Positions 16,828 through 22,847 of a stretch of 64,000 nt of DNA are shown piece by piece. Source of the DNA: an uncultured Paracoccaceae bacterium (GTDB lineage Bacteria > Pseudomonadota > Alphaproteobacteria > Rhodobacterales > Rhodobacteraceae). The notes under the pieces are model-generated. The model saw only the letters and a program-made list of their open reading frames with translations. It did no database searches and was not told the DNA's origin. The stretch covers positions 62,001 through 126,000 of the forward strand of contig CANLEQ010000009.1 of the NCBI GenBank assembly GCA_947489705.1. The letters run 5' to 3'. The first letter of the stretch is position 1, and the number at the start of each line of letters is the position of its first letter. Position numbers and translations under genes: made by a program.

Positions 16828-17808
16828 TCAGGTTTCGCGCGCTGCGGCCGCCATCATCCGGCTGGCGTAATCCAGTGCCGACAGCATGTTGACGTGGTTC
16901 GCCTTGCCGGTTCCCGCGATATCGAAGGCGGTCCCGTGATCGACGGAGCAGCGCTGGATCGGCAGGCCGAGCGAGACGTTGACCGCGCTGTCGAAGGCGA
17001 CCAGCTTGATCGGGATATGCCCCTGGTCGTGGTATTGCGCGATGACGAGGTCAAACCCGCCCTGGTAGGCGCGATGATAGACCGTGTCGGCCGAGATCGG
17101 TCCCTCGACATCGATCCCCTCGGCCCGGGCGGCTTCGACGGCCGGGGCGAGCTGGTCGTCATCCTCGTGCCCGAAAAGGCCGTTCTCGCCGCAATGGGGA
17201 TTGATGCCCGCCACCGCGATCCGCGGCCGCGCGACCCCCATGCGGCGGAAATGTTCGGCGCCGATGCGGATCGTCGCGAGCACCCGCTCGGTTGTGGCAC
17301 GGCCGATGGCGTCTTTCAGCGAAACATGGGTCGAGGTGTGGATCACGTTCAGCCGCTCGGAGGCGAGCAGCATCCATGAGGATTCCGACCCGGTGAGATG
17401 CGCCAGCATCCCGGTATGGCCGTCGTAATGGTGCCCGGCCGCGTTCAGCGCCTCCTTGTTGATCGGCGCGGTCACGATGCAGCTGGCGCGGCCGTCGAGA
17501 CAGGCTCGCGCCGCGCGTTCGATGTACCGGAACGCCGCCTCGCCGCAGGCGGGGTCGAGCGTGCCGAACCGCCCGGGCAATCCCGCGACCTCTAGGTGAT
17601 CCACGCGGATGCCGTCGCCCGATGCGTCGGGCGCGATGACGGGGATGTCGATGTCGCAGGCCGAGAGCGCACGGTCCACCGTGTCGCGGTCGCCGATGAT
17701 GACGGTCCGTGCCCGAAGCTCCGGGCCCGCCTCGGCGAGGGCCTTCACCGAGACCTCGGCGCCGACGCCGGACGGATCTCCCATGGTGATGACGACTGGT
17801 GCGGTCAT
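16828..17808 (-). CDS. pdxA2: PdxA2-type 4-phospho-acid-sugar dehydrogenase
   Basis: The ATG at 17808 follows GGGGAGAG and gives 326 residues. The PdxA fold is recognisable from [25 protein letters not shown], the first metal His in [24 protein letters not shown], and the third in [12 protein letters not shown]. True PdxA makes pyridoxal phosphate from 4-phosphohydroxythreonine. The PdxA2 paralogs paired with DUF1537 kinases instead oxidise D-threonate- or erythronate-4-phosphate to dihydroxyacetone phosphate and CO2. The divergent neighbour here is such a kinase and a TRAP transporter follows, so the PdxA2 role is preferred. Confidence 0.87.
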
Positions 17809-17933
17809 TCGGCTCTCCCCTGTCCCCTTGCGGGCGAATGTCCCACGGGTACGATAGTTGCGGACCAGATGCCAGATCGCACGGATTGCCGCAGCGTTGC
17901 ATCGCGACGGCCGCGACCCTAGAACCTTGCGGC

Positions 17934-18983
17934 ATGAGCCCGGATGGCCGCCTGACCCGATTGCTGTTGATCGCCGACGACCTGACCGGGGCGCTCGATT
18001 CGGCCGTGGCCTTTGCCGCGACCGGGCGGCGCGTCGCCGTGGCACGGACGCCCGACGCCGCGCCGGCATTGGCGGCGGAGGCCCCCGATGTGCTGGCGGT
18101 CAATCTGGGATCGCGCGACGGCGACGCGGCACGCGCGCGCGCCCGGATGGAGGCGCTCTGTCGCGCGCTGGACCCGCGGCGGTTCGACGTGGTGATGAAG
18201 AAGGTGGATTCGCGGCTGAAGGGGCATCCTGGGGCCGAAGCCGCCGTTCTTGCCGCCGCGATGGGCAACCCGCCATGCGTCGTGCTGCCGGCGATCCCGT
18301 CGATGGGCCGTGTCCAGCGTGGCGGTCGCATCGAGGGGGAGGGCATCGCCGCACCGATCCCGGTGGCCCCCCTCTTCGAGACAGAGGTCGATGTGCCCGA
18401 AATTCTGGCGGATGCGGATCTCGACCGTGCCGTATCGGGGGGCGCGCGCGTTCTCTGGGTCGGCGCGCGCGGGCTCGCCGCGGCCTTGGCCGGAACGCTC
18501 TTCGACGGGGCGTCCGCCCCGCTGCCGGTCGTTCCTCCTCCGATGCTGATGGCGATCGGCTCGCGCGATCCGATCACGGTGGCACAGGTCGACGCGTTGC
18601 GCGGGGCAGGGGTCCACGCCGCGCCCGACGGCCGCGTCGGCGACCTCGACCTCAGGCGCGCGGTCGAGGTCGTGCGGATGACGGATGGCGGCGAAGGCCG
18701 CGACGCGGACGCGGCGGGCGCCGATTTCGCGGCCGGCCTCGCCGCCCGGATGCGGGGCTTCCGTCCGGCGACGCTTCTCTGCTCCGGCGGCGAAACCGCC
18801 GATGCGATCCTCGCGCGACTCGGGATCGACCGGCTCGACGTGCTGGCCGAGATCGCGCCGGGCGTGCCGGTCTGCGAAATCGACGCGCCTTGGGGCAAGC
18901 TGCGCCTCGTCACGAAATCCGGCGGGTTCGGAGCGCGCGACCTTCTTGCCGAGATAGCCGCCGATTGCCTCGGCACCCGCTAG
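17934..18983 (+). CDS. DUF1537 four-carbon acid-sugar kinase
   Basis: This 349-residue protein has the two conserved regions of the DUF1537 kinase family: an N-terminal substrate domain with [12 protein letters not shown] and [14 protein letters not shown], and a C-terminal nucleotide region with [11 protein letters not shown] and [11 protein letters not shown]. Family members phosphorylate D-threonate, D- or L-erythronate or related acid sugars on O4. It is shorter than many members (often about 400) but no key block is missing. It is divergent from pdxA2 across 125 bases, and dctQ follows, consistent with an acid-sugar uptake and catabolism operon. No strong ribosome site is seen before ATG 17934. 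Confidence 0.85.
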
Positions 18984-19111
18984 GAACAGCAAGCCGGGAG
19001 ATCACCGACGGGTTACAGGCATGCCGGTCCGGATACGATCGTCAGCCTCTTGCACTGCTGCCTGCGCCCCGGCACGATGCCGTGTCGGCGATGCAGAATT
19101 GGGGAGGCTCC

Positions 19112-19150
19112 ATGGTGGTTTCATACGGCCCGGCGGGGTGGGCGCCGTGA
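19112..19150 (+). CDS. 12-residue leader ORF coupled to dctQ
   Basis: GGGGAGG lies at ideal distance before ATG 19112, which opens a 12-codon frame (MVVSYGPAGWAP) ending in TGA at 19148-19150. That stop overlaps the GTG start of dctQ (GTGA). The strong ribosome site serves this tiny frame while dctQ itself has none, so dctQ translation may depend on re-initiation. It could be an unannotated leader peptide. Confidence 0.4.
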   Translation: MVVSYGPAGWAP

Positions 19151-19725
19151 GCGCGCTTCTCTCGGTCTCGCGGCTCATCGATCGCACCAATGGCTTCATC
19201 GGCCGCGCCTTCGCCTGGCTGCTGCTCGTCGCGGTGGTGGTGAGCGCCGGCAACGCGGTGATCCGCAAGGCGGTCAACCTGTCGTCGAATTCCTGGCTGG
19301 AACTCCAGTGGTATCTCTTCGGGGCGGTCTTCATGCTCTGCGCGGCCTGGACGCTGCGCGAGAACGAGCATGTGCGCGTGGATGTACTGTCCGCGTCGCT
19401 CAGCCCGCGGACGCGCGTGCGCATCGACCTGATCGGCCACCTTCTCTTCCTGCTGCCCTTCGCGGGGATGATGGTCTATCTCAGCTGGCCGTTCTTCGTC
19501 TCGTCCTACGTGTCGGGTGAACAATCGAGCAATGCCGGCGGCCTCGTGCGATGGCCGGCGAAGCTCTGGGTGCTGATCGGTTTCGTGCTGCTCTTCGCTC
19601 AGGGCATATCCGAGATCATCAAGCGCAGCGCGATGCTGGCGGGTCATCTCGACATTCCCGAAGCTCTGAACAAACGGGCGGAAGAGGTCGAGGCGACGCA
19701 GCCGATGGACGAGGGCAAGGCGTGA
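19147..19725 (+). CDS. dctQ: TRAP transporter small membrane subunit DctQ
   Basis: The 192-residue protein has four membrane segments and the DctQ/YiaM pattern, with WLELQWYLFGAVFMLCAAWTLRENEHVRVDV in the middle. TRAP transporters use the sodium gradient and a periplasmic binding protein to import organic acids; the small subunit is needed for assembly. The GTG at 19147 is chosen because the preceding leader ORF overlaps it; earlier in-frame codons do not look coding. Its stop overlaps the dctM GTG (GTGA). The C-terminal 20 residues are charged and cytoplasmic. The dctP binding-protein gene lies convergent beyond dctM. Confidence 0.87.
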   Translation: MSALLSVSRLIDRTNGFIGRAFAWLLLVAVVVSAGNAVIRKAVNLSSNSWLELQWYLFGAVFMLCAAWTLRENEHVRVDVLSASLSPRTRVRIDLIGHLLFLLPFAGMMVYLSWPFFVSSYVSGEQSSNAGGLVRWPAKLWVLIGFVLLFAQGISEIIKRSAMLAGHLDIPEALNKRAEEVEATQPMDEGKA

Positions 19726-21617
19726 TCGAGCTCATCGCCCACAACCTCGCCCCGATCATGTTCATCTCGGTCATGGGGCTTCTCATCCTCGGCTATCCCG
19801 TCGCCCTGACCCTGGCGGCGGGGGGGCTCTTCTATTTCGTCGTGGGCGTCGGGCTTTCGGATTACTCGAGCGAGATCAATCTCTTCTGGCCGCTGCTCCG
19901 CGCGATGCCCGAGCGCGTCTTCGGGATCATGTCGAACGACACGCTGCTCGCGATCCCGTTCTTCACCTTCATGGGGCTGATCCTCGAACGTTCCGGCATG
20001 GCGGAGGACCTGCTCGACACGGTGGGCCAGCTCTTCGGGCCGATCCGGGGCGGGGTGGCCTTCGCGGTGATCCTCGTCGGCGCGCTTCTGGGCGCCACGA
20101 CCGGCGTGGTCGCGGCCTCGGTCATCGCGATGGGGTTGATCTCGCTGCCGATCATGCAGCGCTACAAGTACGACCCGAGTGTCGCGACGGGGACCATCGC
20201 GGCGTCGGGAACGCTGGCGCAGATCGTGCCGCCCTCGCTCGTCCTCATCGTCATGGCGGACCAGCTCGGCGTATCGGTGGGCGACATGTATCTCGGCGCC
20301 GTCTATCCCGCGCTCCTCACGATCGCGGCCTATTGCGCCTATATCGCCGCGCTGACCGTGCTGCGCCCGCGCGCCGTGCCGGCCCTGCCGGCCGAGGAGC
20401 GCAAGCTCGGCGGCGGGATCTGGTCGCTGGTGGCGATGCTGGGGCTGGCGGTCGCCCTCTATTTCCTGGGCACCCGCGTCCTCTTCACCGGCTACATCCC
20501 CGCGACGCGGGTGGTGTTCGCCGCGGCCCTTTCCGTGATCGTGTGCTACGTGATCGCGCTTGCGAACCGCCGCATGGAGCGGGGGATCCTGTCGCGCCTG
20601 ACCGAGCAGGTCGTCATCGTGCTGATCCCGCCGCTCGCGCTCATCTTTCTCGTGCTCGGCACGATCTTTCTCGGCATCGCCACGCCGACCGAAGGCGGCG
20701 CGATGGGGGCGGTGGGCGCACTCATCCTGGCCGTGGCTAAGCGGCGGATCGACTTCAAGACGCTGACCTCGGCGGTCGAGGGAACGGCGAAACTCTCGGC
20801 CTTCGTGCTCTTCATCCTGATCGGCGCGCGCGTCTTCGGCCTGACCTTCTACGGCATCAACGGCCAGGTCTGGCTGGAGGAGCTGTTGCTGAGCCTGCCG
20901 GGCGGGCAGTTCGGCTTCCTCATCGTCGTGACGATCGTGATCTTCGTTCTGGGATGTTTTCTCGATTTCTTCGAGATCGCCTTCATCCTCGTCCCGTTGC
21001 TGGCCCCCGTGGCGCAGACGCTCGGGATCGACCTCATCTGGTTCGGCGTGCTTTTGTCGATGAACCTGCAGACCTCGTTCCTGACACCGCCCTTCGGCTT
21101 TGCGCTCTTCTACCTGCGTTCGGTCGCTCCGACGGAGGAATGGGTGGACAATCAGACCGGCGAGACCATGCAGCCCGTGCGGACCGCGCAGGTCTACAAG
21201 GGCGTGCTGCCCTATATCGCTCTGAATTTCGGACTCATCCTCCTCGTGATCCTGATGCCGGGGCTCGTGACGCATTACGACGACGCGCGCGAGGCCCGGC
21301 AGCAGGAAAGCAGAACCGTGGCGCCCGCAGAAACCGGCGGCGATCCCGCGACCAGCGGAGGCTTCAACTTCGGCGGAGCGGGGAACGATGCCGCACCGTC
21401 GCAGGGCGAGAACTCCGGCGGTGGCTTCAACTTCGGAGGCGCCCCCGAGGCGCCGTCTTCCGATACGGGATCGGCAACGCCCGAGGCCGCGCCGGGCGGC
21501 AGCTTCAACTTCGGCAATACCGGGGCGACGGACGAGGCGCCTGCGGCCGAGACCGATGCAGGGGACGAAGAAGATGACGCCGCGCCGCCCCCGGGTGGGG
21601 GCTTCAACTTCAACTAG
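19722..21617 (+). CDS. dctM: TRAP transporter large permease DctM with GGxFNF-repeat tail
   Basis: The first 520 residues are a normal multi-spanning DctM permease: LLAIPFFTFMGLILERSGMAEDLL, GATTGVVAASVIAMG, SGTLAQIVPPSLVLIV and the C-terminal TSFLTPPFGFALFYL. The protein then continues for over 100 residues beyond the last membrane helix with a low-complexity Gly/Ala/Asp/Glu tail containing GGFNFG (546-551), GGGFNFG (566-572), GGSFNFG (592-598) and GGGFNFN (625-631, the very end). Typical DctM proteins of this type end soon after the last helix. The tail's role is unknown; interaction or phase-forming behaviour is only speculation. Start GTG overlaps the dctQ stop. Confidence 0.92.
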   Translation: MIELIAHNLAPIMFISVMGLLILGYPVALTLAAGGLFYFVVGVGLSDYSSEINLFWPLLRAMPERVFGIMSNDTLLAIPFFTFMGLILERSGMAEDLLDTVGQLFGPIRGGVAFAVILVGALLGATTGVVAASVIAMGLISLPIMQRYKYDPSVATGTIAASGTLAQIVPPSLVLIVMADQLGVSVGDMYLGAVYPALLTIAAYCAYIAALTVLRPRAVPALPAEERKLGGGIWSLVAMLGLAVALYFLGTRVLFTGYIPATRVVFAAALSVIVCYVIALANRRMERGILSRLTEQVVIVLIPPLALIFLVLGTIFLGIATPTEGGAMGAVGALILAVAKRRIDFKTLTSAVEGTAKLSAFVLFILIGARVFGLTFYGINGQVWLEELLLSLPGGQFGFLIVVTIVIFVLGCFLDFFEIAFILVPLLAPVAQTLGIDLIWFGVLLSMNLQTSFLTPPFGFALFYLRSVAPTEEWVDNQTGETMQPVRTAQVYKGVLPYIALNFGLILLVILMPGLVTHYDDAREARQQESRTVAPAETGGDPATSGGFNFGGAGNDAAPSQGENSGGGFNFGGAPEAPSSDTGSATPEAAPGGSFNFGNTGATDEAPAAETDAGDEEDDAAPPPGGGFNFN

Positions 21618-21692: not shown

Positions 21693-22847
21693 TTAGTTCT
21701 CGCTGGACGAGCTCTCGCCACCCGTCGCACCCGCGCCCGAGATCTGCGCGGGAAGCTGACCCTGGCTTTGCTTTTGCTGCATGAAGCTCGCGAAGTTCTG
21801 CTCCGCGACCTGCTGCCAGAGGAAGTGGTCGGCCTGGAACGCCATCATGCTGTCGTAGATCTTCGCCCATCCATCGGCACTGTCGCGAAGATCGGCATAG
21901 AGCTGCAGGCTCGCGTCGTAGGTCGCGTTCAGCACGTCCTGCGGGAAGGCGCGAAGCTGCGCTCCGTTCGACACCAGACTGCGCAGAGCGGCGGGGTTCT
22001 TGTAGTCGTACTCGGCCATCATCTCGGTGTTGGCCGCGCGACATGCCGTTTCGAGCAGGCGCTTGTAATTGTCCGGAAGGCCGTCCCAAGCGGAGCGGTT
22101 GACGAAGCAGTTGAGGGTCAGGTTCCCCTCCCACCAGCCGGGATAGTAGTAATAGGGCGCGACCTGATAGAAGCCGAGCTTCTCGTCGTCGTAGGGACCG
22201 ATCCACTCGGCCGCGTCGATCGTGCCGCGTTCGAGTGCCGGATAGATATCGCCGCCCGCGATCTGCTGCGGGACGACGCCGATCTGCTCCATCACCTGGC
22301 CCGCGAGGCCGGCAATGCGCATCTGCAGGCCCTGCATGCCCGAAAGCCCGTCGATCTCGTTGCGGAACCAGCCGCCCATCTGGGTGCCGGTATTGCCCGC
22401 GGGCAGATAATGCAGGCCCTGACCGTTGTAGAACTCGTTGAGCAGGTTGATGCCGTCGCCGTAATAGAGCCACGCATTCATGCCGCGCGTGTTCAGGCCG
22501 TAGGGGATGACCGCGCCGAGCGCCCATGTCGGCGATTTGCCGACATAGTAATAGGCGGCGGTATGACACATCTCGACCGTGCCGTTCTGCACCGCATCGG
22601 CCGCCTGCAGGCCGGGAACGATCTCGCCGCCGGCAAAGACCTGGATGTCGAAGGCCCCATCCGTGGCCTCGCGCACGTAGCGGGCCACGTCCACCGCGCC
22701 GCCATAGATCGTGTCGAGCGATTGCGGAAACGACGACGTGCAGCGCCACTGGATGCTTTCGGATCCCTGCGCGAGGGCCGGCGCGGCTAGCGCCGATGCG
22801 CCGGCACCGCTCAGTGCGGCGGTACGGAGAAAACGTCTACGGTCCAT
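21693..22847 (-). CDS. dctP: TRAP transporter substrate-binding protein DctP (TakP-like)
   Basis: The 384-residue protein has a twin-arginine signal (MDRRRFLRTAALSGAGA... ALAQ). It matches the TakP/mannitol-chloroaromatic branch of DctP proteins, with IPYGLNTRGMNAWLYYGDG, the substrate arginine region MRIAGLAGQVMEQIG, and AEWIGPYDDEKLGFY followed by YYYYPGWWEG. TakP binds 2-oxo acids with sodium in the periplasm. Here the neighbouring kinase and dehydrogenase point to an acid sugar such as a C4 aldonate. The gene is convergent with dctQM instead of preceding them. The C-terminal 20 residues are Gly/Ser rich. Confidence 0.9.
   Translation of the reverse strand: MDRRRFLRTAALSGAGASALAAPALAQGSESIQWRCTSSFPQSLDTIYGGAVDVARYVREATDGAFDIQVFAGGEIVPGLQAADAVQNGTVEMCHTAAYYYVGKSPTWALGAVIPYGLNTRGMNAWLYYGDGINLLNEFYNGQGLHYLPAGNTGTQMGGWFRNEIDGLSGMQGLQMRIAGLAGQVMEQIGVVPQQIAGGDIYPALERGTIDAAEWIGPYDDEKLGFYQVAPYYYYPGWWEGNLTLNCFVNRSAWDGLPDNYKRLLETACRAANTEMMAEYDYKNPAALRSLVSNGAQLRAFPQDVLNATYDASLQLYADLRDSADGWAKIYDSMMAFQADHFLWQQVAEQNFASFMQQKQSQGQLPAQISGAGATGGESSSSEN

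Follow-up and report, generated by a model that had tools for sequence, protein, structure and literature searches.

The large permease of a TRAP transporter encoded in the window, that is, the whole 64,000-nucleotide stretch of DNA that was analysed, carries a real C-terminal tail, a conserved accessory element so far unrecognised in this known family of transporters. Of the DctM proteins compared, only TakM has such a long tail. It had been taken for an oddity of one DctM protein, but comparison of the sequences shows it to be a trait of the TakM subfamily, of which the FNF repeats found here are the version of one clade. As for its role, we propose tentatively that the tail, lying in the periplasm, tethers the dimeric binding protein TakP in a multivalent manner. 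The features concerned are the following (positions in the window).

19114–19725, plus strand: takQ-like gene of the TRAP small permease (DctQ), Pfam PF04290 at 1.7e-20; the start is not settled within the open frame 19021–19725
19722–21617, plus strand: takM-like gene of the TRAP large permease (DctM), 631 amino acids; Pfam PF06808 at 2.8e-97, TIGR00786 over its cut-off, Foldseek match to SiaM 7qha_B
21279–21614, plus strand: C-terminal tail after the last transmembrane helix, residues 520–631, predicted to be disordered and periplasmic (composition, pLDDT, topology)
21363–21371, plus strand: FNF copy 1, SGGFNFG (this and the next three by reading frame and codon pattern)
21426–21434, plus strand: FNF copy 2, GGGFNFG
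21504–21512, plus strand: FNF copy 3, GGSFNFG
21603–21611, plus strand: FNF copy 4, terminal, GGGFNFN followed by the stop codon
21693–22847, minus strand: takP-like binding protein gene, 384 amino acids, convergent to takQM, proposed partner of the tail; PF03480 at 2e-55, PDB 2hzk/2hzl
21696–21752, minus strand: extension of TakP past the swapped dimerisation helix, residues 366–384 (19 residues), seen in the clade with FNF tails

The GTG start of the permease gene overlaps the end of takQ. Membership of its product in the DctM family was supported by both profiles, with 326.6 bits against the curated cut-off of 23.8 for PF06808 and 308 against 268.45 for TIGR00786, and the Pfam and NCBIfam matches lay in the core alone, with no known domain in the tail. 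The AlphaFold2 model (pLDDT 81) is confident in the core, which shows the SiaM-like elevator fold, and its top Foldseek match was SiaM of Photobacterium profundum (7qha_B, E 2e-15, TM 0.83 by target length, 24% identity). By profile and fold, the part upstream of the tail is the normal permease that the preliminary description of this DNA had taken it for. In the assembled sequence the frame stays open as far as the stop at 21,617. A tail created by a sequencing artefact or frameshift was rejected, because independent genomes carry an in-frame tail of the same kind.

The best solved relative of the neighbouring binding protein is TakP (PDB 2hzk/2hzl; 4.3e-150, residues 1–365 of both query and chain), the alpha-keto acid binding protein of Rhodobacter sphaeroides, which, according to the available sections of the original report, dimerises via a swapped C-terminal helix of residues 326–365 (PMC1839085). 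The match spans the region of this helix, which makes the protein one of the TakP type. Since TakP is the best solved relative and genes for DctQ and DctM accompany it, the system was therefore regarded as being of the TakPQM type and, judging from these similarities, the permease as the TakM of such an importer, with a putative role in keto-acid uptake. The region adjoining takQM (16828–18983) contains a PdxA-family dehydrogenase gene on the minus strand (TIGR00557 over the cut-off), whose product also resembles threonate-4-phosphate dehydrogenase, and a gene for a kinase like D-threonate kinase (below the cut-off, E 1.2e-29). The resemblance of these upstream genes to those of four-carbon acid sugar enzymes may hint at a four-carbon acid as the substrate or as a fellow nutrient.

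The tail comprises 112 residues and is rich in Gly, Ala, Pro, Asp and Glu. The preliminary description had placed a low-complexity tail of more than 80 residues at base 21,354, which is indeed the start of residue 545, the Ser preceding the first repeat; 87 residues remain from this point, but the tail proper starts sooner, at residue 520 (base 21,279). Four FNF copies are present as described, though the strict form GGxFNF fits only three of them, the first being SGGFNFG, while G[GS]FNF fits all four. That the protein terminates on its last repeat (FNFN) and that the linkers are acidic (20 D/E versus 3 K/R in the tail) was correctly seen. The repeat spacings had been read as 20, 26 and 33 residues, of which the first is actually 21, and their increase toward the C-terminus is not conserved: relatives show orders such as 17, 22, 16, 27 or 22, 24, 25, by which a meaning of the rising spacing was ruled out.

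In residue shuffles of the tail, which probe its arrangement and not its composition, FNF occurred 0.037 times on average and four copies were reached in 0 of 20,000 shuffles, while G[GS]?FNF appeared four times in 0 of 100,000; the four-copy arrangement exceeds chance. The codon pattern for G-x-F-N-F matched seven times in the whole 4.3-Mb genome, four times in the takM tail and three times singly on other contigs (the reversed control gave four matches), and no second clustered set of this pattern was present anywhere in the genome. When the genome was searched at the protein level with the tail, only the tail itself was matched, the next hit having an E of 0.14. By neither approach was GGxFNF seen in this genome as a general tag of several membrane proteins, and this idea was rejected. 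At the DNA level, a pattern for GGxFNF close to a TAG stop was found in 51 of 394 genomes of the family but was discarded: it was loose and covered TAG stops only, few matches were tail-like, and by their letters most were judged to be due to chance.

The genome (4.3 Mb) is that of a very TRAP-rich organism, with 37 DctM-family matches. Thirty of these loci were fetched and 29 read (L129 was without a match), which gave 28 complete paralogous DctM ORFs; L120 was left out of the count because the ORF picked there belonged to a neighbouring gene truncated at the end of the locus. All 28 complete ORFs end 0–18 residues past the last hydrophobic stretch, versus 112 in TakM, which bears out the statement that a DctM protein normally ends shortly behind its final helix.

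Conservation in close homologs, on which the preliminary description had made its reading depend, was found. A close TakM (E at most 1e-100) was detected in 8 of the 13 other genomes of the same genus that were searched, and all eight proteins have a tail with 3–6 [FL]NF copies, the last one lying 4 or 5 residues from the end. In Loktanella atrilutea, one locus likewise has 3–6 [FL]NF copies and ends on one. At least three [FL]NF copies occurred in 12 of 95 loci, representing 10 distinct tails, and the terminal copy was retained in all ten. Tails of 24–185 residues after the core (median 78) were found in each of the 90 readable TakM loci, our own included, among the best matches listed: the loci derive from the best 80 of 561 confirmed matches together with 60 covered genomes, and statements on all 90 are valid for those lists. 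Five of the 95 loci do not enter the tail counts, L018 and L020 having the same TakM as L005 and L011, respectively, and L047, L058 and L073 running off their contigs. The non-FNF tails are built of clade-specific repeat units such as LGLPPL, PPPSFG, LGAP or GGLGG. Among the same best matches listed, the end has the form DL[ST]xPPx[FM][NDK] in 38 of 90 tails, across several families, and consists of F or FG plus N, D or Q in 46; a bulky hydrophobic residue stands within the last five positions of 67 tails and is absent there from 23. A juxtamembrane VDPSxIxI segment was recognised by its strict pattern in 40 of the 90 loci. A phylum-wide draw of 150 genomes yielded nine further TakM proteins besides our own, all with a tail; two of them lie outside the class and have non-aromatic tail ends. 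The ends of these relatives outside the class (L143 and L144; DPAKALMDSLNAAPTQ and DPGKALEESMKKKP, respectively) differ from the others and are possibly helical.

The codons of the tail change very unevenly. In four species pairs, non-synonymous changes affected 5 of 80 motif codons versus 152 of 354 linker codons, a contrast somewhat inflated by the anchoring of the alignments on the motif, and in the closest pair (L009/L011) they affected 0 of 25 motif, 21 of 112 linker and 2 of 520 core codons. The Asn of the motif is constant while its codons vary (35 AAC, 10 AAT). The difference between L009 and L011 includes the gain or loss of one entire 24-residue unit together with its motif. What emerges directly from the computation is the tail itself, with its conservation, the constraint on the motif over the linkers and, among the DctM proteins compared, its confinement to TakM. 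Copies free in their order but preserved in their motif are the mark of a multivalent short linear motif, and the several conserved short motifs on disordered linkers that a tether calls for are seen in the sequence, the codon changes and the pLDDT values. The earlier comparison with interaction motifs of disordered proteins names the best class of explanation, which the conservation of the motif favours, with TakP as the putative partner.

The AlphaFold2 model assigns pLDDT values below 50 to residues 544–558 and 561–631, and neither Cys nor Trp occurs in 5,236 tail residues; disorder of the tail is thus a prediction, and a well supported one. SiaM has an N-out, C-out topology according to the accessible part of its authors' account (PMC9971032). 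With sides assigned according to that topology, the inner loops were richer in K/R than the outer ones in 64 of 64 relatives (0.137 versus 0.025 per residue), although the loop sides were taken from that topology and from our own reading of the helix limits, which makes this a consistency test and not a blind prediction. Between the two halves of the permease, two more helices were modelled than in SiaM; this being an even number, the side of the C-terminus would be kept. Given the SiaM-like fold, the C-out topology and the loop charges, the tail is most likely periplasmic, on the face where TakP docks, and we regard this placement on the same side as TakP as well supported.

A TakP-like gene (44–100% identity) was present at 78 of 95 loci, at 74 on the opposite strand and at 68 in convergent orientation, and no TakP gene was found at 17 of 95 loci within the fetched stretch. 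At the four loci with takP on the same strand, the tails are short (29, 32, 50 and 29 residues). Co-divergence was examined by Mantel-type tests, which readily yield false positives when ancestry is shared, on the 66 of 90 loci that had full TakM, TakP and TakQ, with the tails compared by 3-mer distance. The distance between tails correlated with that between TakP proteins when core and TakQ were given (partial rank r 0.41, n 66, p 0.002), versus 0.04 for TakQ given core and TakP (p 0.25, n 66) and −0.11 for the core given TakP and TakQ (n 66). The TakP signal was 0.35 with order and genus as covariates, 0.29 with one locus per genus (n 40), 0.32 in 45 non-redundant loci and 0.42 without the FNF clade (n 62), and was lost in the 15 loci under 75% core identity (r 0.10, p 0.27). 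It fell to 0.26 when the last 12 tail residues were removed. Within Rhodobacterales alone (n 22), TakQ reached r 0.19 (p 0.02) versus 0.25 for TakP (p 0.01). As the 3′ end of takM adjoins takP, part of the signal could stem from linkage or recombination, although the N-terminal part of TakP correlated as well (0.42) as its C-terminal part (0.36). The co-divergence is consequently a modest signal which, without being proof, would favour TakP as the partner of the tail.

According to the tether proposal, the last helix of TakM would exit the membrane on the periplasmic side and pass into the disordered tail, which would display several times a short aromatic motif (G[GS]FNF[GN] in this protein, with the last copy at the C-terminus) on flexible acidic linkers. 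Each copy would bind dimeric TakP weakly, so that the tail would act as a multivalent fishing line that keeps both loaded and empty TakP close to the permease, and would help it to dock, swap and dock again with a gain in uptake. We infer TakP as the partner, the weak multivalent binding and the gain in uptake. The great differences in repeat units between clades make one conserved interaction less than obvious, and the solved sialic acid TRAP systems, which function without such a tail, also count against a tether, as do the 23 tails that lack a bulky hydrophobic residue near the end and the 17 loci at which no TakP gene was found in the fetched stretch. A broader version, which we consider rather doubtful, would see in the tail a strategy like that of FG nucleoporins, with weak periplasmic docking motifs of the FxFG type (PPxFN or LPPL elsewhere) co-evolving with dimeric TakP for fast multivalent capture, as a general coupling device of TakPQM systems.

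The diversity of lengths (24–185 residues) and of clade-specific units, the fast-changing linkers and the unit gained or lost between L009 and L011 would also be expected of an unspecific periplasmic spacer or bristle, growing and shrinking by repeat slippage, soluble by its composition and serving at most crowding or protease protection. Such a spacer gives no account of the constancy of the FNF residues, even if the motif-anchored alignments exaggerate it, nor of the terminal copy in all distinct FNF tails and the recurrent DL[ST]xPPx[FM] end, and we regard it as unlikely, if worth keeping in mind. It is conceivable that a flexible periplasmic tail of up to 185 residues reaches the cell wall and serves to anchor or position the transporter in the envelope through contacts with peptidoglycan, with an outer-membrane protein or with some other periplasmic scaffold; however, the other DctM proteins of the genome have no tail, the FNF repeat occurs in no other gene of it, Pfam and NCBIfam found no known domain in the tail, and clade-specific units fit a dedicated, co-evolving partner better than the cell wall, all of which makes an anchor improbable.

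The position of the motif at the very C-terminus in the FNF clade, the fixed end common elsewhere and the persistence of a minimal tail of about 25–30 residues could also reflect a regulatory fold-back, in which the terminal motif covers the docking face of TakQM and is then displaced by TakP. The tail end is, however, undocked on its own core in the TakM model, with pLDDT below 50 to the C-terminus, and no docked end was seen in the model of a Rhizobium homolog with a DLSQPPSFN end, which is too weak to count (mean pLDDT 65, tail end below 50); we give the fold-back little credence. A cytoplasmic tail that recruits an enzyme or forms condensates, an idea encouraged by the FxFG-type spacing reminiscent of FG repeat proteins, is contradicted by the fold and by the loop-charge topology, which put the C-terminus outside, and is very improbable.

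Four known systems come closest. The binding protein is like TakP of R. sphaeroides over residues 1–365, and the TakM-like protein of Rhodobacter capsulatus (L071) also has a tail, of 84 residues; the tail units of Rhodobacter are GGL/LGAP-like, in contrast to FNF here, and TakP here is 19 residues longer. The TakPQM papers, as far as their accessible sections go, make no mention of a TakM tail, and no description of a DctM or TakM tail was found in literature searches, which covered open-access papers and a part of the preprints. With SiaQM (PDB 7qha, 8thi, 7qe5) the fold of the large subunit is shared, but the permease here has about 25–50 extra residues between its halves and the long tail, whereas the SiaM chains (427 residues) end after the last helix. 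Nucleoporins carry FxFG repeats. FNFG is formally an FxFG motif, it stands on hydrophilic linkers of about 20–30 residues and multivalent weak binding is the model proposed here, but nucleoporins are eukaryotic pore proteins, the tails have only 3–6 copies, and no relation is claimed. In the maltose ABC importer, the periplasmic loop MalF-P2 moves around MalE, according to the part of the report available (PMC8134467). This is similar in idea, a periplasmic extension of a permease touching the binding protein, but there is no homology, the loop is folded and not a disordered repeat tail, and the importer is of the ABC and not the TRAP type.

How TRAP systems, as secondary transporters, achieve strict coupling to a soluble binding protein is an open question, and the reason for employing a dimeric TakP has been unexplained since 2007, as far as the sections available of PMC1839085 indicate. 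The TakM tail offers a concrete and easily deleted element for probing the capture of the binding protein, and the FNF clade has the cleanest repeats, while a version of the tail is available in R. capsulatus, which is a laboratory organism. If the proposal is true, the FG-like tail would represent a general coupling device in the TakPQM branch of the TRAP family that has escaped notice; should the tail turn out to bind something other than TakP, this would also be new for these transporters.

The ends of the TakP proteins provided some further observations. In all six distinct complete TakP ends of the FNF loci, the sequence continues with P[AG]Q after TakP position 365, and the extension represents one event, because it is confined to one clade. 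TakP here ends with GESSSSEN, and the unrelated binding protein beside the paralog L134 ends with SSDDSSEN. The loci L024 and L041, from Mangrovicoccus (Rhodobacterales) and Aurantimonas (Hyphomicrobiales), respectively, have TakP ends that resemble each other (FMMxKQREGxL followed by an extra tail), and both have TakM tails of the LGLPPL type across the two orders; a joint transfer of the TakP end and the TakM tail between these lineages is possible.
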